Source: Myxococcota bacterium (GTDB lineage: Bacteria > Myxococcota_C > UBA6777). Taken from it: a DNA stretch of 36,733 nt. Under the pieces are notes generated by a model. The model was not told the origin of the DNA. It saw only the letters and a list, made by a program, of their open reading frames with translations, and ran no database searches. The stretch covers positions 1-36,733 of the forward strand of contig JAKLKB010000059.1 of NCBI GenBank assembly GCA_023150835.1, in the 5' to 3' direction. Both the position numbers and the translations under genes were made by a program. Within the stretch, counting starts at the first letter, position 1, and the number at the start of each line of letters is the position of its first letter. Below, piece after piece: positions 3,004-36,733 of this stretch.

Positions 3004-3107
3004 CCGCAAGGGAACTTTGTCCCCTTGACCCCGTATTGGCGAAGAGATCACAGATTTTTCACACAGACGACTCTGTCGCTTGAACCTTCACGAACACGGG
3101 GTTTTTT
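2984..3107 (+). repeat. Intergenic hairpin repeat, module A copy 1
   Basis: Begins with the perfect stem GCGGGG-TTCCA-CCCCGC, followed by a CAAGGG...CCCTTG stem, the core TTGACCCCGTATTGGCGAAG, a TTTTTCA segment, GTCGCTTGAA and a terminal CGAACACGGGG plus T-run. The same order of blocks recurs six more times in the window. It lies between the DUF971 gene and the TonB receptor gene. Confidence 0.85.
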
Positions 3108-3133
3108 GGCGGATGCGACGCTTCAAGAAGAAG

Positions 3134-6069: not shown

Positions 6070-6097
6070 TGGGATAAGATCGACACAATTCGATGAT

Positions 6098-6222
6098 GTG
6101 GGACTCTGCCCCACACCCCGCGCCCTTAGCGCGGCTCCCTTGACCCCGTATCAGCGAAAAGATCACAGGTTTTTCAAAAAAATAGCTCCGTCGCTTGAAG
6201 TGTCGCGAACACGGCTTTTTTT
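6098..6222 (+). repeat. Intergenic hairpin repeat, module A copy 2
   Basis: Carries the blocks GTGGGACTCTGCCCCAC, a GCGCCCTTAGCGCGGC variant of the second stem, CCCTTGACCCCGTATCAGCGAA, TTTTTCAAA, GTCGCTTGAA and CGAACACGGC plus T-run. It shares the variant second stem with copy 3, which suggests that these two are a subfamily. It lies between purK and the split hydrolase. Confidence 0.85.
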
Positions 6223-6227
6223 GATTT

Positions 6228-8617: not shown

Positions 8618-8707
8618 CGATGCACCCTCACTCCAAAGAGCTTTCTCTCGCGTTCGAGAACGTACCGCAACTTCGTTGATTCTTTGAGCCGTGGCACGCT
8701 TGACGAA

Positions 8708-8828
8708 ATCCCCGTGTTCGTGGGCGTACAAGCGACACCGCTGTGCGTTTGAAAAACCTGTACTCGCATCGCCGATACGGGGTCAAGGGGGCCGCGCTAA
8801 GGGCGCGGGGCGTGGGGCAGAGTCCCAC
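8708..8828 (-). repeat. Intergenic hairpin repeat, module A copy 3
   Basis: Reverse-oriented copy with CCCCGTGTTCG, AAGCGACA, GTTTGAAAAAC, CATCGCCGATACGGGGTCAAGGG, the GCCGCGCTAAGGGCGCGG stem variant and a closing GTGGGGCAGAGTCCCAC. It lies upstream of the split hydrolase and downstream of the next gene. Confidence 0.85.
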
Positions 8829-8855
8829 AAAAGCCATGCAACCGCACAAAGCGAA

Positions 8856-10800: not shown

Positions 10801-10929
10801 CCCGAAAAACTCGTGTACGCGCCTCTCCAAGCGACAGAGTCGTTGGTTTGAAAAACAATGATCGCTTCGCCGATATGGGGTCAAGGGGCGACAGTCTATG
10901 GCGGGGTTTGGGGTTCCAACCCCACAAAC
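10801..10929 (-). repeat. Intergenic hairpin repeat, module A copy 4
   Basis: Reverse-oriented copy: CCCGAAAAACTCGTGTACG, AAGCGACAGAGTCGTTGGTTTG, CTTCGCCGATATGGGGTCAAGGGG, then the CGACAGTCTATGGCGGGG variant and a GGGGTTCCAACCCC stem. It shares the CGACAGTCTAT block with copy 6, marking a second subfamily. It lies between the TPR gene and the hydrolase gene. Confidence 0.85.
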
Positions 10930-13762: not shown

Positions 13763-15940
13763 ATGATTCGCCGCCCGTTTGTATATGGTACTTATTGCTT
13801 TTTGCTTGTGTTCTCTGTGCTGTTTCCTGCTTGCGTCTGCACACCTCCCACATTTCGGACGACGTGCAGCAGCGATGCCGATTGCCCCGTCTCGATGCGT
13901 TGCGATTTTACCACCGCACGCTGCGTCACCAACAAGATCAATCCCACTTGCACAGCCAACAAAGACTGTCCTCTTGGACAATCCTGCATCTCAGGTCAAT
14001 GCACCATCCAATCTTGTGCGGATAACGAAACCATCGCTTGCGTTATCGGCGGCCAAACCGGCCCTTGCTCGGTCGGACAACGCACTTGCCGAAATGCTAT
14101 CTGGTCGGGCTGCGAACCCAAAAACGCCACAGGCGTCCCCGAGACCTGCAATGGCCTCGACGATGATTGCGACGGTCAAGTCGATGAAGACTTCAAAGGA
14201 AAGTTCGAAGCCTGCGAAGTACCCGGGAAACTCGGCCCATGCCGCCTCGGAGTGCAAAGCCGCTGTGTTGCCGCCAAGATCCTTTGCGAGTCGACCTACA
14301 ACCCGATCACCGAATCCATCAACAGCGCCAATTGCAACGACGGCATCGACAACGATTGTAACGGCCTGACCGACAAAGACGACCCCAAGTGCCAAACCAT
14401 CACATGCAAAGCGGGAGACACCCGCCCTTGCTACGATGGACCCGTCGGCACCGAAGGCATCGGAGCCTGCAAAGGCGGCATCCAGTCTTGCATCAACGGC
14501 GTCTTTGGCCCCTGCCAAGGCCAAGTCCTCCCCACCAAGGAGCTCTGCAACAACCGCATCGACGAAGATTGCAACGGTCTTGCAGACGACAAGTGCGGCC
14601 AAACTTGCACCGCAGGACAACAACGCGAATGTTACTCGGGCCCCGAAAGCACCCGCAACGTCGGCATCTGCAAAGTCGGCTCACAGTTCTGCGTCAACGG
14701 CGAATGGTCCGATTGCCAAGGCCAAGTCCTCCCCACCAAAGAGATCTGCGAAGACAAGCTCGACAACGACTGCAACGGCAAGATCGACGATTGCCTCAAC
14801 CCCAACCAATGTAAACTCGGCGAGGTACGGCCTTGCTACACAGCAGCTTCGGGCTGCAAGGCCGATGCAGCAGGCCAATACACTTGCCAAGGCGCGTGCA
14901 AAGCTGGAATGCAAAACTGCGGACCCAACCTAACGTGGGATCCATGCAAAGGAGAGGTCGGTCCTTCGGCGGAGATCTGCAACGACAGCATCGACAACGA
15001 TTGTGACGGAAAGGTCGATGGTTGCGTCGCCCGTGATGAACTACTCTCCGCGAGTTGGGACAGCCTTTCTCCGATCAAACGATGGGACACCAAAACCCCC
15101 AAAGAGCTGCGCAGTTATACGGGCGGCCACACCGATATCGTCTACAGCGTGCGTATCAGCGCAGACGGAAAATACATCGTCACAGGCGGCCAAGACCAGC
15201 GCGTGATCTTTTGGGAAGTCGACACCGGCAAGCTGCTTTGGAGCGGGACCGACCATAACGCCTCGATCTTTTCCACCGCCATCGACACCAAGGGCCAGAT
15301 CATCGCTTCGGGCGCTTCCGACGGAAAGATCTTTTTGTGGAATCCCACCACAGGAAAAGTCGATCGCCGTATCAACGCCAACACAGGCGGCGTTTATGCC
15401 CTTGCCATCGACCGCACCGACCGTTGGCTTGTCTCTGGTGGGGCCGATGCCAAGGTCCAGATCCGCGACTTTGCCGCATCCAATCCCAACGCCGTCAACA
15501 CGCTTTCGGGCCACACCCTCGATATCTACGCCATCGCCATCGATCCAAAAAGCCGATGGATCGCTTCGGGAGGCCGCGATGCCAAGCCGATGATCTGGGA
15601 TCTCAACAACCCCAAACTGCTCTACACGCTCGCAGGACCCACCCTCGGGATCACATCGCTCGCCTTCTCAGAAGATGGAAACACCCTTGCTGTCGGGAGT
15701 TCCGACTATACCATCACCCTCTGGAACATGACCACTTCTCCTCCCACACAGCGCGCCAAACTCACCGCTCCCAACAGCGATCCCGTCTACGCCGTCGCCT
15801 TCCACCCGCTAGGAAACATCCTTGCATCCGGCACTTACAACAGTCACATCATCCTCTGGAACCTCACCACCCAAACCATCCAATCCACCCTCACCAACGC
15901 ACACAACGGCACCGTCTCTTCCCTGATCTTCCGCCCGTAA
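13763..15940 (+). CDS. Lipoprotein with MopE-like metal-binding repeats and WD40 propeller
   Basis: A 725-residue surface or periplasmic lipoprotein. The signal peptide ends in a lipobox-like LFPAC (Cys24). Two short CxxDxDCPxGxxC modules follow (about 34-80), then five MopE-like repeats between about 120 and 430, each with CNxxDxDCxGxxD (for example ETCNGLDDDCDGQVDED, EICNDSIDNDCDGKVDG), which resemble EF-hand-like metal loops. The C-terminal ~285 residues form a WD40 propeller of about seven blades (GGHTDIVYSVRISADGKYIVTGGQDQ and so on), the last closing with TVSSLIFRP. MopE-like repeats are frequent in Myxococcota. CGGAGG lies 6 bases before the ATG. The function is unknown; a calcium- or metal-stabilised binding protein is likely. 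Confidence 0.9.
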   Translation: MIRRPFVYGTYCFLLVFSVLFPACVCTPPTFRTTCSSDADCPVSMRCDFTTARCVTNKINPTCTANKDCPLGQSCISGQCTIQSCADNETIACVIGGQTGPCSVGQRTCRNAIWSGCEPKNATGVPETCNGLDDDCDGQVDEDFKGKFEACEVPGKLGPCRLGVQSRCVAAKILCESTYNPITESINSANCNDGIDNDCNGLTDKDDPKCQTITCKAGDTRPCYDGPVGTEGIGACKGGIQSCINGVFGPCQGQVLPTKELCNNRIDEDCNGLADDKCGQTCTAGQQRECYSGPESTRNVGICKVGSQFCVNGEWSDCQGQVLPTKEICEDKLDNDCNGKIDDCLNPNQCKLGEVRPCYTAASGCKADAAGQYTCQGACKAGMQNCGPNLTWDPCKGEVGPSAEICNDSIDNDCDGKVDGCVARDELLSASWDSLSPIKRWDTKTPKELRSYTGGHTDIVYSVRISADGKYIVTGGQDQRVIFWEVDTGKLLWSGTDHNASIFSTAIDTKGQIIASGASDGKIFLWNPTTGKVDRRINANTGGVYALAIDRTDRWLVSGGADAKVQIRDFAASNPNAVNTLSGHTLDIYAIAIDPKSRWIASGGRDAKPMIWDLNNPKLLYTLAGPTLGITSLAFSEDGNTLAVGSSDYTITLWNMTTSPPTQRAKLTAPNSDPVYAVAFHPLGNILASGTYNSHIILWNLTTQTIQSTLTNAHNGTVSSLIFRP

Positions 15941-16002
15941 ACTCGACCCGACCGCTCCAACCTTGTTTACTTGATTTCTCAGGTGCGCAGTTCGCTTGTG
16001 TT

Positions 16003-16126
16003 GTGGGGTTTCACCCCACGCCCCACAAGGGAGCTTTGCCCCCTTGACCCCGTATCGGCGAAGAGAACATCACTTTTCAAACCAACGGCTATGTCGCTTG
16101 AGCGTGTACGAACACAGGGGGCTTCT
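16003..16126 (+). repeat. Intergenic hairpin repeat, module A copy 5
   Basis: Opens with the perfect stem GTGGGG-TTTCA-CCCCAC, then CAAGGGAGCTTTGCCCCCTTG, ACCCCGTATCGGCGAAGAG, TTTTCAAACCAACGGC, GTCGCTTGAGCGTGTACGAACACAGGGGG. Compared with copy 1 the outer stem pair G-C is replaced by T-A, a compensatory change. It lies 60 bases after the MopE/WD40 gene and may act as its terminator. Confidence 0.88.
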
Positions 16127-16537: not shown

Positions 16538-16834
16538 ATGAACACTTCTCACCGCTTGGAAGAAGCCCTTGGCCTGTTGGAATGTGCGAGCTACACAGCC
16601 GCTCTCGCAGCGTCCGATGCGATGCTCAAAGCCTACACAATCGAGTTTTTGGGACTGGAAGATATCGGAAGTGGCACGATCACCACAAAGATCTGGGGCG
16701 ATGTCGAACAAGTCCAGAAAGCCATCGAGATCGGCGTTGAGATGGCCGAACAGGTCGGCGAAGTCATCAGCCTACACGTGATCGCTTCCCCTCATCCTTC
16801 GCTGCGCAAATACCTACGAAAAGAGTCTCTCTAA
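16538..16834 (+). CDS. Bacterial microcompartment hexamer shell protein (BMC-H)
   Basis: A 98-residue single-BMC-domain protein. BMC-H hexamers tile the facets of carboxysomes and metabolosomes. It aligns along its length with PduA/EutM-type proteins: EALGLLECASYTAALAASDAMLKAY, then GLEDIGSGTITT with the central-pore GSG loop, GDVEQVQKAIEIG, and VGEVISLHVIASPH. The edge Lys after DAM is kept, but the usual VIPRPH edge motif reads VIASPH, so the edge Arg is lost. No pentamer (BMC-P) or trimer gene lies nearby. A weak GAAGAG precedes the ATG, so the start is less sure than the family. The next gene, 206 bases on, is an aldolase/dehydrogenase fusion that could be cargo. Confidence 0.85.
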   Translation: MNTSHRLEEALGLLECASYTAALAASDAMLKAYTIEFLGLEDIGSGTITTKIWGDVEQVQKAIEIGVEMAEQVGEVISLHVIASPHPSLRKYLRKESL

Positions 16835-16891
16835 TATTCTCTGAGCGCCAACGTTTCGACCCCGAGGACCCTAGGGGCGACACAGAAGACA

Positions 16892-17013
16892 AAAGCCCCC
16901 GTGTTCGGGCAACAACAAGCGACAGCATCGTTGGTTTGAAAGACCTCTGCTCTCTTCGCCGATACGGGGTCAAGGGGCGACAGTCTATAGCGGGGTGTGG
17001 TATCTCGCCCCAC
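16892..17013 (-). repeat. Intergenic hairpin repeat, module A copy 6
   Basis: Reverse-oriented copy starting AAGCCCCCGTGTTCGGGC (itself a CCCG-TGTT-CGGG hairpin), then AAGCGACAGCATCGTTGGTTTG, CTTCGCCGATACGGGGTCAAGGGG, CGACAGTCTATAGCGGGG and a GGTATCTCGCCCCAC end. It separates the BMC-H gene from the aldolase fusion and ends only 28 bases before the aldolase start, so it lies in that gene's leader. Confidence 0.85.
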
Positions 17014-17040
17014 AAAACTTATCACAAGAAAGGAACGCGG

Positions 17041-19086
17041 ATGCAAACAAGATGGTCGGATCAAGCCGCAAAAGAGGCGATCCAACACTACGCCGCCCAC
17101 AACGAAGATATCGCCCTGCGCGTTTACACTTCCCGTCTGATCGGCCAAGAAGACGCGCTGGTCTTACACGGAGGCGGAAACACCTCTGTCAAGACGGTGG
17201 TCCGCAACAAACTCGGCGAAGAGATCGAAGTCCTCGCCGTCAAAGGCAGCGGCTGGGATCTCAAGACCATCGAACCCCAAGGCTTTCCTTGCGTTGATCT
17301 GAACCATTGTCGCAAACTTCGCGCTCTTCCCGCTCTCTCCGACGAAGAGATGGTCAACGAGCTACGAACCCACCTACTCGACTTCAACGCGCCCAACCCT
17401 TCGGTCGAAGCGCTGCTGCATGCGTTCCTTCCACACAAGTTTATCGATCATTCCCATGCAGACGCCATCCTCGCCATCGTCGACCAAGAAGACGCCGTGA
17501 CGATCTGCAAACAGATCTACGGTGACTCCCTTGTCATCGTCGACTACATCATGCCCGGCTTTGCGCTGTCCAAAAAAGCCGCCGAAGCCTACGAAGCCAA
17601 CCCCCATGTCAAGGGACTTTTGCTGCTCAAACACGGGCTGTTCACCTTCGGCGACACCGCTCAAGAAAGCTACGAACGCCACATCGAAGCAGTCACTCTC
17701 GCCGAAACCTACATCCAAAAATCCCAACGCCGCGCCCTCACGATCCCCCATCCCCAAGCACTACCCGAACAGATCATCGAACAGCTTTATCCGATACTGC
17801 GGAGTTTGTATCACGAACTAAGCGGAAAGCCTTGGGTGATCCACACCCGCAACACCGAAGCCACGCGCCAATTTTCCTCCAGCACCGAAGCCCTGTCTTG
17901 GACGCAGTTCGGTCCGATCACTCCCGATCATGTGATCCGCACCAAAGCCACCCCCTGCGTCATCCACGATATCCCCCATGAACCCGAAGCCTTGCGTATG
18001 CACCTTCGCAACGAGATCATCGCCTACCAAGAACGTTACCACGCTTATTTCACGCGCCAACAAACACGCGCAAAGACCGCCAAAACCGAACTCGACCGCC
18101 TGCCGCGTGTGTTTTTGATCGCGGGCCTCGGCCTCGTGACGATCGCTCCCCAAGAAAAAGCCGCCCAGATCGCCGCCGATATCTACGAACACACCCTCGA
18201 AACCATCCAAGACGCGATGGCGATTGGCCGATATCAGCCCGTCAGCGAAGCTGATATCTTTGAGATGGAGTACTGGTCGCTCGAACAAGCCAAGCTCGGC
18301 AAAAGCAGCGCTCCCCCTCTCCAAGGCCATGTCGCCTACATCACAGGAGCGGCCTCAGGGATCGGACTCGCCTGTGCAAAAACCTTCGCCAAAGCGGGCG
18401 CTCACCTCTACCTCGTCGATATCCAAGCCGAGCGCCTCCAAGAAGCCGCCACACAGATCCGCCGTTCGGGCGCATCAGTCGAATGGCAGATGGTCGACGT
18501 CACCGATGCCAACGCCGTCCGCGCCTCTGTCTCCCGTTGTGTCCATCGCTTCGGCGGAATCGACCTCGTCCTCTCCAACGCAGGAGCCGCCTTCCAATCC
18601 CTGATGGCCGATTGCGAAGACGATCTCTTACAACGCAGCTTTGCCCTCAACTTCTTCTCCCACCAGTCCCTCGCCCAAGCCGCCACACAGATCATGCGAC
18701 GTCAACGATACGGCGGCGCTTTGTTGTTCAACGTCTCCAAAGCCGCCCTCGATCCCGGCCCTCAGTTCGGCCCCTATGCCACCGCAAAAGCCGCAACAAT
18801 GGCCCTGATGAAGCAATACGCCCTCGAAGGAGCCCCCCACAAGATCCGCGCCAACGCCGTCAACGCGGATCGTATCCGAACAGGCCTCTTTACCGAAGAG
18901 TTCGTCCAACAACGCGCCGCTGCGCGTGGCCTCGCTCCCGAAGCCTACTTCCGCGCAAACCTCCTTGGTGTCGAAGTCTACGCCGAAGATGTCGCGCAAG
19001 CCTTCCTGCATCTTGCACTTGCAGAAAAAACCACCGCCACGATCTTGACCGTCGATGGCGGAAATATCGCAGCCAGCCCACGTTAA
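17041..19086 (+). CDS. Class II aldolase / short-chain dehydrogenase fusion
   Basis: A 681-residue bifunctional enzyme of the RhaD-aldolase/alcohol-dehydrogenase fusion type. Residues about 1-400 are a class II aldolase/adducin domain with GGGNTSVK, a HSHADA metal-binding pair, and LLLKHGLFTFG. Residues about 425-681 are an SDR domain with the TGAASGIG NAD(P) loop (VAYITGAASGIGLACAKTF), VDVTD, SNAGA, the catalytic YATAK, and ILTVDGG near the end. In relatives the aldolase cleaves a deoxyhexulose phosphate (rhamnulose-1-phosphate) and the SDR acts on the lactaldehyde product; the substrate here is inferred from family only. AAAGGA lies 7 bases before the ATG at 17041. It is followed after 39 bases by a universal stress protein gene. 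Confidence 0.93.
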   Translation: MQTRWSDQAAKEAIQHYAAHNEDIALRVYTSRLIGQEDALVLHGGGNTSVKTVVRNKLGEEIEVLAVKGSGWDLKTIEPQGFPCVDLNHCRKLRALPALSDEEMVNELRTHLLDFNAPNPSVEALLHAFLPHKFIDHSHADAILAIVDQEDAVTICKQIYGDSLVIVDYIMPGFALSKKAAEAYEANPHVKGLLLLKHGLFTFGDTAQESYERHIEAVTLAETYIQKSQRRALTIPHPQALPEQIIEQLYPILRSLYHELSGKPWVIHTRNTEATRQFSSSTEALSWTQFGPITPDHVIRTKATPCVIHDIPHEPEALRMHLRNEIIAYQERYHAYFTRQQTRAKTAKTELDRLPRVFLIAGLGLVTIAPQEKAAQIAADIYEHTLETIQDAMAIGRYQPVSEADIFEMEYWSLEQAKLGKSSAPPLQGHVAYITGAASGIGLACAKTFAKAGAHLYLVDIQAERLQEAATQIRRSGASVEWQMVDVTDANAVRASVSRCVHRFGGIDLVLSNAGAAFQSLMADCEDDLLQRSFALNFFSHQSLAQAATQIMRRQRYGGALLFNVSKAALDPGPQFGPYATAKAATMALMKQYALEGAPHKIRANAVNADRIRTGLFTEEFVQQRAAARGLAPEAYFRANLLGVEVYAEDVAQAFLHLALAEKTTATILTVDGGNIAASPR

Positions 19087-19125: not shown

Positions 19126-20025
19126 ATGACCACCAAGATCTTTGAACACATCGTTATCGGCTACGACTTTTCCGAGTCTTGCCGCATCGCACTCCACGAA
19201 GCTGTCCGCCTCGCACAGCGCCACCACGCCAAACTCACCCTCTTTCACGCCATCGACGACCTTCTGCTCCAATACAACCACCTGATGACCCTCTCCCCGC
19301 CCGAACTCGAAGCCGCCATCCACGCAGAAGCCAAAAAAGATATCGATGCACTACTTCAAAAAGTCGGTGGATCGGTGATCTACGAAGTCCACATCTGTAG
19401 CGGAAAACCTTACAAGGAACTGTTGGCCTTTTGCCAAAAAGACGATGTGAGCTTGCTCGTCATCGGAAAAACAGGCGCATCCGCCCTTGAGCGCATCCTG
19501 CTCGGCAGCACTGCCGAACGCCTGCTCCGTCATGCCGATGTGCCCGTCCTGCTCGTTCGCCCCGACAAAGAACCCGGCTTCCAAAAGATCCTTGTTCCCG
19601 TCGACTTCTCCGAGCTTTCACAGATGGCGCTCAAAGAAGCCTTCGCACTCGCGATCCACGAAGGCGCCAGCCTCGAAGTCCTCCACATCGTCGAGTTTGG
19701 CACTCTTCCGCTGCCCGCTGGTGTCGGTGCGTTTGAAGAAGCCCTCAATCTTCCCTTGGTCATGCAGGACCAAGCACGCGAAGAGATGGCCCGCTTTATC
19801 GCTGACTTTGACTTTGGCGATATCCACGTCCACACCCACCTGACTGTCGGTGCGCCCGATCAAGAGATCACCCGTTATGCCGAAGAAAATAGCTGCGATC
19901 TGATCGTCATGGGTTCCGTCGGTCGTACAGGACTCCAAGGCTTTTTGCTCGGCAACACCGCTGATCGCGTGTCCCGCCGCGCACAATGTTCCCTCCTCAC
20001 CCTCAAGCCACCCCGCCTCACCTGA
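19126..20025 (+). CDS. Tandem-domain universal stress protein
   Basis: A 299-residue cytoplasmic protein with two USP domains. Domain 1 begins FEHIVIGYDFSE and ends with GKTGASALERILLGSTAERLL; domain 2 begins FQKILVPVDFSE and ends with GSVGRTGLQGFLLGNTADRVS. Both keep the G-x2-G-x9-G-(S/T) nucleotide-binding signature, so both probably bind ATP. The gene follows the aldolase fusion by 39 bases and is probably in its operon. It is convergent with the gene at 20036, with only 10 bases between stops. Confidence 0.93.
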   Translation: MTTKIFEHIVIGYDFSESCRIALHEAVRLAQRHHAKLTLFHAIDDLLLQYNHLMTLSPPELEAAIHAEAKKDIDALLQKVGGSVIYEVHICSGKPYKELLAFCQKDDVSLLVIGKTGASALERILLGSTAERLLRHADVPVLLVRPDKEPGFQKILVPVDFSELSQMALKEAFALAIHEGASLEVLHIVEFGTLPLPAGVGAFEEALNLPLVMQDQAREEMARFIADFDFGDIHVHTHLTVGAPDQEITRYAEENSCDLIVMGSVGRTGLQGFLLGNTADRVSRRAQCSLLTLKPPRLT

Positions 20026-29782: not shown

Positions 29783-30214
29783 GTGAACAAAACACAAAAA
29801 AATCGCGCCATCTTGATCGAAAAACTCAACCAGATCTTGGCTTGGGAGAAACGCGCCGAAGCGATGTATTCGCACTACGCCGCGTATGTGAAAGGACTCC
29901 ATCGCTTGCACCTCAAGCCCTTCTTTGAAGGCGAAGCCAACGAATCCACCCTCCATGCTCGCCAAGTCCGCGAAGCCATCGTCCACCTTGGCGGTGTCGC
30001 CATCACCGAACAAGATCCCACCGCGATCAAGCACACCACCAACTACCGCGAGATGTTGGCCGAAGCCTTGGAAACCGAAAAGCGCGCTGGAGCGGGATAC
30101 GCAGGACTGCTCGAACACATCGATGAAAATGACGAACTCTACGATGTGTTGCAACAGATCCACTTCGCCGAAGAACGCAGCCTGATCGAACTCAACCACC
30201 TCCTCGACGGCTGA
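29783..30214 (+). CDS. Ferritin-like diiron-type protein
   Basis: A 143-residue four-helix protein resembling bacterioferritin/Dps-type ferritin-like domains. Helix 1 has AWEKRAEAMYSHY (E22, E26), helix 2 EGEANESTLHARQ (E54, H58), helix 3 EALETEKRAGAGY (E99) and helix 4 HFAEERSLIELNHLL (E130/E131). The spacing of the second ligand pair is unusual and the second ExxH appears as ExxS, so iron binding may differ from classical ferritins. The GTG at 29783 is preceded by AAAGG at 8 bases; an upstream frame lacks support. Its last 24 codons are duplicated just downstream. It is likely involved in iron or redox storage, but this is inferred from fold. Confidence 0.75.
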   Translation: MNKTQKNRAILIEKLNQILAWEKRAEAMYSHYAAYVKGLHRLHLKPFFEGEANESTLHARQVREAIVHLGGVAITEQDPTAIKHTTNYREMLAEALETEKRAGAGYAGLLEHIDENDELYDVLQQIHFAEERSLIELNHLLDG

Positions 30215-30295
30215 TTTTACGATGTGTTGCAATCGCTCCACTTCGCCGAAGAACGCAGCCTGATCGAACTCAACCACCTCCTCGACGGCTGAGAC
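30140..30295. repeat. 78-bp duplication of ferritin-like gene 3' end
   Basis: Two near-identical 78-bp units (30140-30217 and 30218-30295) each begin TACGATGTGTTGCAA and include the final helix codons and stop of the ferritin-like gene. The 78-bp offset is 26 codons, so the second unit is in frame; it is separated from the gene only by the TGA at 30212. Read-through would add another copy of the last helix. Confidence 0.9.
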
Positions 30296-36568: not shown

Positions 36569-36574
36569 AGTTTC

Positions 36575-36692
36575 GTGGGGCTTTGCCCCACACCCCACAA
36601 GGGAGTCCGCTCCCTTGACCCCGTGTTTGGCGGAACGAACAGATGTTTTTCAAACAAACAACGGCTCCGCTTGGACGAGCCCGAACACGGGA
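36575..36692 (+). repeat. Intergenic hairpin repeat, module A copy 7
   Basis: Begins with the perfect stem GTGGGG-CTTTG-CCCCAC, then CAAGGGAGTCCGCTCCCTTG, ACCCCGTGTTTGGCGGAACG, TTTTTCAAACAAACAACGGC and GCCCGAACACGGGAG. The second stem keeps full pairing despite several differences from copies 1 and 5. Confidence 0.88.
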
Positions 36693-36733
36693 GTTGTTGA
36701 TAGGGGGAAGATTTGTCGTTCTCACGTATGCTT

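Follow-up and report, generated by a model that had tools for sequence, protein, structure and literature searches.

A stand-alone BMC-H protein of a small bacterial phylum and its class II aldolase/dehydrogenase neighbour

Gene content of the locus

The window, i.e. the whole stretch of 36,733 nt that was analysed, belongs to the assembly G000 of a Myxococcota bacterium (7.56 Mb in 239 contigs, 93% complete). The following features lie at the locus:

16001..16100, no strand assigned: dispersed repeat, inverted copy 5' of the BMC-H gene
16538..16834, plus strand: BMC-H, 98 aa (ATG at 16538, stop codon ends at 16834; Pfam PF00936)
16835..17040, no strand assigned: gap of 206 nt between the BMC-H and aldolase genes, holding a copy of the dispersed repeat (16877-17000)
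17041..19086, plus strand: class II aldolase/short-chain dehydrogenase (SDR) fusion, RhaEW-like, 681 aa (NF006192, active-site alignment)
19126..20025, plus strand: tandem universal stress protein 3' of the pair (Pfam PF00582)

The PF00936 domain of the BMC-H protein is a single full-length copy (1-75 of 75) and scores 71.8 bits against a cut-off of 24.5. The AlphaFold model of the monomer (pLDDT 91.3) has the BMC fold, and its best match in the PDB is PduA (Z 17.0, rmsd 1.3 Å). A preliminary description of the window had called this gene a complete BMC-H, which is borne out by the open reading frame, the full domain and the model.

An intergenic repeat of about 85-120 nt is dispersed in both orientations (3014-3121, 6097-6223, 8706-8829, 10805-10911, 16001-16100, 16877-17000 and 36573-36699); six matches to its core CCCCTTGACCCCGTATCGGCGAAGAGA were counted versus none in shuffled sequences. 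The repeat looks like an element of the REP/MITE type, and two mutually inverted copies flank the BMC-H gene. Elsewhere in the window, 13763-15940 encodes a predicted lipoprotein that combines MopE-type motifs for metal binding with a WD40 propeller. A 75-nt tandem duplication (96% identical) lies at 30140-30292, and each of its copies ends in a stop codon. A promoter and terminator scan of the window gave no signal above chance.

The aldolase/dehydrogenase fusion

The start of the fusion was placed at the ATG at 17041, which follows the Shine-Dalgarno-like stretch AAAGGA; the open reading frame opens with a TTG at 16936. Its domains are Aldolase_II and adh_short, just as the next gene had been described before. 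The protein scores 858 bits with NF006192, exceeding the cut-off of 639, and 471 bits with the RhaD-type model TIGR02632, which is under the cut-off of 567.75. The catalytic residues are intact, namely HSHADA and the third His (metal ligands), TGxxxGIG, and S...YxxxK (SDR site).

RhaEW of Chloroflexus and Bacillus converts L-rhamnulose-1-phosphate to DHAP and L-lactate in a single protein, and the product is absent when NAD is omitted (PMC3870299). The fusion has the same domain order and catalytic residues but differs from RhaEW in that TIGR02632 stays under its cut-off, NF006192 fits better and the gene lies outside a rha gene cluster; its neighbours are the WD40 lipoprotein, the universal stress protein, PF13769, APH and APS kinase. 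By analogy, the fusion would most likely split a 6-deoxyketose-1-phosphate into DHAP and lactaldehyde and then oxidise the lactaldehyde to lactate. Since the aldehyde would be made and oxidised in one polypeptide, a shell would not be needed to contain it.

The preliminary description had proposed to look for an encapsulation peptide on the aldolase. Aligned to its homologues, the fusion is not extended at the N- or C-terminus, and thus no encapsulation peptide is present at either end. Among 389 sampled genomes, NF006192 exceeded its cut-off in nine, seven of which are unrelated to the phylum and are all without a BMC gene. Because of the missing peptide and these seven unrelated BMC-free genomes, the fusion is not evidently shell cargo as judged from its sequence; the cargo reading was rejected as neither terminus carries an encapsulation peptide. 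A PF00596 aldolase also stands beside a shell gene in the PVM, GRM5 and ACI microcompartments, but these have full shells and the ACI aldolase has an encapsulation peptide (PMC8217296), neither of which is found here.

Search for further shell genes

The BMC-H gene had been described as lone, which holds for the entire G000 assembly: a profile search gave one PF00936 match and no match to BMC-P (PF03319) across the 7.56 Mb. The proposed search for BMC-P, BMC-T and PduP-type dehydrogenase genes was also run on G000 and found no other BMC, BMC-P or PduP-like gene, so the suggested satellite of a microcompartment locus elsewhere in the genome is not supported.

The phylum was sampled with five genomes from three genera (G000 and its sister species G001; G003; G002 and G004), which are draft assemblies of 86-94% completeness, three of them with 6% contamination. 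One BMC-H orthologue per genome was found in all five. Further BMC domains and PF03319 are absent from G000, G001, G003 and G004, and a PduP-type aldehyde dehydrogenase, searched with a query from G002, is absent from the same four at E ≤ 1e-30. Without another shell gene, a normal closed organelle is therefore not buildable in these four genomes. G002 is the single genome of the five with PF03319; apart from its orthologue, a full microcompartment locus is found on its contig C330 (L025, 8473-18389), with three BMC-P, two BMC-T, BMC-H, AldDh, DeoC and a class II aldolase. The C-terminal stretch of this aldolase resembles an encapsulation peptide. As G002 has 6% contamination, the locus may be foreign.

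BMC matches exceed the cut-off in 93 of the 389 sampled genomes, three from the phylum and 90 from outside. A single strong BMC match is found in eight of these 90, six of which have BMC-P, leaving two (G319 and G381). Nearly all other loci from the genome scan have BMC-P and/or more BMC genes nearby; L083 and L112 end at a contig edge, so the surroundings of their BMC genes cannot be judged. The lone BMC protein of G381 (L141:1123-1845; genome 100% complete, without BMC-P) has 240 aa, a proline-rich linker, a C-terminal tail and Gln in place of Lys26. The one of G319 (L142:1441-1767; 108 aa, genome without BMC-P) adjoins two membrane proteins. Both were considered as kin of the phylum proteins and rejected, since they group apart in the tree. 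No description of a stand-alone BMC-H protein was found in the open-access papers that were searched.

Phylogeny, selection and edge residues

The BMC-H tree was built from 100 columns and leaves many forks unresolved. The five phylum orthologues form one clade with a support of 99/99 and a long stem, and the BMC-H of the full locus in G002 falls elsewhere. The dN/dS between G000 and G001 is 0.10 for BMC-H and similar for the aldolase fusion (0.093); the BMC-H orthologues are under purifying selection.

For the comparison of residues, the five orthologues were set against 97 related shell BMC-H proteins. The core residues A5, G7, E10, D22, K26, G49, G69, H75 and I77 are kept, as is the pore GxG in all five; K26 is Lys in 5/5 (K31 in the G000 protein). 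Arg79, present in 99% of the 97 shell proteins, is replaced by Ser, Ser, Asn, Asn and Asp. The G000 protein has Ser at this position and Thr at the equivalent of N29, and the alignment of edge residues confirmed the earlier reading of VIASPH in place of VIPRPH. Position 29 of the orthologues is Thr or Pro, neither of which occurs there in the shell set, and positions 52, 56 and 60 hold residues absent from it as well. Position 83 is Ser, Thr or Ala and is followed by an HPxL C-terminal signature. In PduA, position 83 is said to anchor Arg79 (PMC10109471); the edge triad N29-R79-K26 was studied by alanine scanning, according to a citation in the same paper.

At the interface positions listed in PMC10109471, about 8 of 21 are changed, compared with 22 of 72 elsewhere in the protein. 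A loss of the interface along the whole edge was rejected, as changes are not clearly enriched at interfacial positions, and stress is therefore laid only on Arg79 and the changes at 29, 82, 83 and 85. When PduA R79A is expressed by itself, it assembles into stacked flat sheets and no tubes, and neither PduA K26D nor PduA V51D forms any structure (PMC4139245). The R79A mutant is still incorporated into Pdu compartments and R79A-like mutants still assemble (PMC10109471); the lost Arg79 is thus no proof of lost tiling. That the protein may not tile normally, as had been suggested, is no more than plausible, given that R79A PduA still forms sheets and loses only the tubes. From the aligned residues we conclude that the edge is to be called altered rather than unable to tile, because R79A PduA forms sheets and enters compartments.

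The phylum protein resembles the PduA and HO-5815 hexamers in fold, with Z 15-17 to PDB entries, and has their pore loop, Lys26, Asp22 and length. It differs from them in the lost Arg79, in Thr/Pro at position 29, in Ser/Thr/Ala instead of Asn/Glu/Asp at position 83, in the HPxL signature and in a genome without other shell genes.

Conservation of the gene neighbourhood

The orthologous pair, with order and strand unchanged, is also present in the sister species G001 and in G003 from another genus. The aldolase orthologue directly 3' of BMC-H is 97% identical in G001 and 64% in G003, and the gap between the genes is 206 nt in G000, 140 nt in G001 and 48 nt in G003. Because the pair recurs in a sister species and in another genus, it is more than chance. 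Every phylum genome with this aldolase subfamily has it directly 3' of BMC-H. The orthologue is absent from G002 and G004, where the best match (about 40%) lies elsewhere in the genome. The link to the aldolase is real but partial, being adjacent in two of the three genera and absent in the third; the conservation check proposed earlier had this divided outcome. The preliminary description had named two findings that together would speak against its reading, of which the first (no other BMC gene) is true in G000 and the second (pair not conserved) is false. Remnants of synteny between the window and G003 extend beyond the pair, hence the adjacency may be inherited and not selected. The universal stress protein gene is kept in the sister species and is not beside the pair in the other genera.

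Directly upstream of BMC-H, a gene for a multi-pass TPR/HEAT membrane protein of about 2000 aa is found in G002, G003 and G004 (two of three genera), at a distance of 117, 82 and 15 nt, respectively:

L023:3766-9894, L022:10028-16069 and L021:9720-12563: TPR/HEAT/NACHT-like membrane protein gene beside BMC-H in three genomes

In G002, the contig ends within this gene. The protein of G004 has a weak P-loop NACHT/AAA match below the Pfam cut-off. In the genus of the window, this gene and BMC-H are on different contigs, the former on C16 in G000 and on C303 in G001. A defence system with a NACHT-like neighbour was considered and rejected, since PADLOC recognised none. As G003 has both neighbours, TPR/HEAT - BMC-H - aldolase is a possible ancestral order.

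Explanations considered

With somewhat better than even confidence, we favour a BMC-H hexamer that was handed down within the small phylum and has a function outside closed microcompartments. The phylum-wide BMC-H stands alone and is neither a satellite nor a decaying remnant, because there are no further shell genes in four of five genomes, the orthologues form one clade under purifying selection, and fold and pore are kept. The free-standing hexamer with another job, one of the readings offered at the outset, is supported by the orthologue in 5/5 genomes, the absence of BMC-P in 4/5, the loss of Arg79 in 5/5 and the purifying selection.

A satellite of a microcompartment locus in an unassembled part of the genome would fit the 93% completeness of G000 and the full locus in G002, but four assemblies of 86-94% completeness all lack BMC-P, more BMC domains and a PduP-type dehydrogenase, a joint absence so improbable that we give this explanation hardly any weight. 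Known satellite and satellite-like loci likewise have a shell gene with no complete shell set nearby (Axen 2014, PMC4207490; Sutter 2021, PMC8217296). Satellite loci, however, have a main locus elsewhere, and for the phylum BMC-H there is none in four of five genomes. It might be classified as 'satellite-like', a term for loci predicted to be structurally incomplete BMCs (PMC8217296; PMC4207490). The FRAG BMCs also have shell genes scattered apart from the enzymes, but their genomes have a BMC-P triplet (PMC8217296), and G000 is without BMC-P. A decaying remnant of a lost microcompartment, retained by chance, is very unlikely: the long stem of the clade, the lost edge residues and the full locus still present in G002 point that way, but the gene is intact with a dN/dS of 0.10, is kept with invariant core and pore in five genomes of three genera, and the BMC-H of the G002 locus is not sister to the orthologues.

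Two explanations tie the protein to a single neighbour. In the first, BMC-H is devoted to the aldolase/dehydrogenase and would hold the enzyme or channel lactaldehyde as an open sheet or ring, the microcompartment being cut down to a single tile and a single enzyme. The adjacency on the same strand in G000, G001 and G003, and the invariable place of this subfamily directly 3' of BMC-H within the phylum (48 nt away in G003), speak for it. G002 and G004, however, keep BMC-H without this aldolase, the fusion lacks an encapsulation peptide, its subfamily exists without BMC genes, a RhaEW fusion already couples formation and oxidation of the aldehyde (PMC3870299), and with leftover synteny around the pair the adjacency could be plain inheritance. 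This partnership is thus unlikely. The metabolic reading first proposed is right by half: the neighbour is RhaEW-like, but it has no encapsulation peptide, belongs to a subfamily found in BMC-free genomes and is not paired with BMC-H in one of the three genera. Still less likely is a signalling role, in which the hexamer would assemble with the TPR/HEAT (NACHT-like) membrane protein and be its multivalent adaptor or sensor. The place of that gene directly upstream of BMC-H in three genomes and the weak P-loop match in G004 agree with it, but the gene is on other contigs in the genus of the window, the NACHT match is under the Pfam cut-off and PADLOC recognises no system.

For the favoured hexamer outside a closed shell, the following can be proposed. 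The protein would still form hexamers with an open central pore, and these would either remain free or assemble as flat sheets, not curved shells. It would serve partners encoded beside it as an open scaffold or a small-molecule-binding ring, these partners being the aldolase/dehydrogenase in two genera and, likewise in two, the large membrane protein with TPR/HEAT regions. More tentatively, and with less confidence than in the hexamer itself, the whole phylum may have made a free hexamer, used as adaptor or sensor, out of a shell tile, with the pore intact, partners differing by genus and no organelle.

Meaning for BMC-H proteins

BMC-H proteins are known as the tiles of closed shells. To our knowledge, the use of BMC hexamers outside a shell is mainly that of engineered scaffolds. 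A BMC-H match alone, even next to an aldolase, is no proof of an organelle. The phylum BMC-H probably does another job than that of an organelle wall; conserved in the absence of pentamers, it combines an altered edge with the retained pore and is a natural test of what the hexamer is able to do outside a shell.
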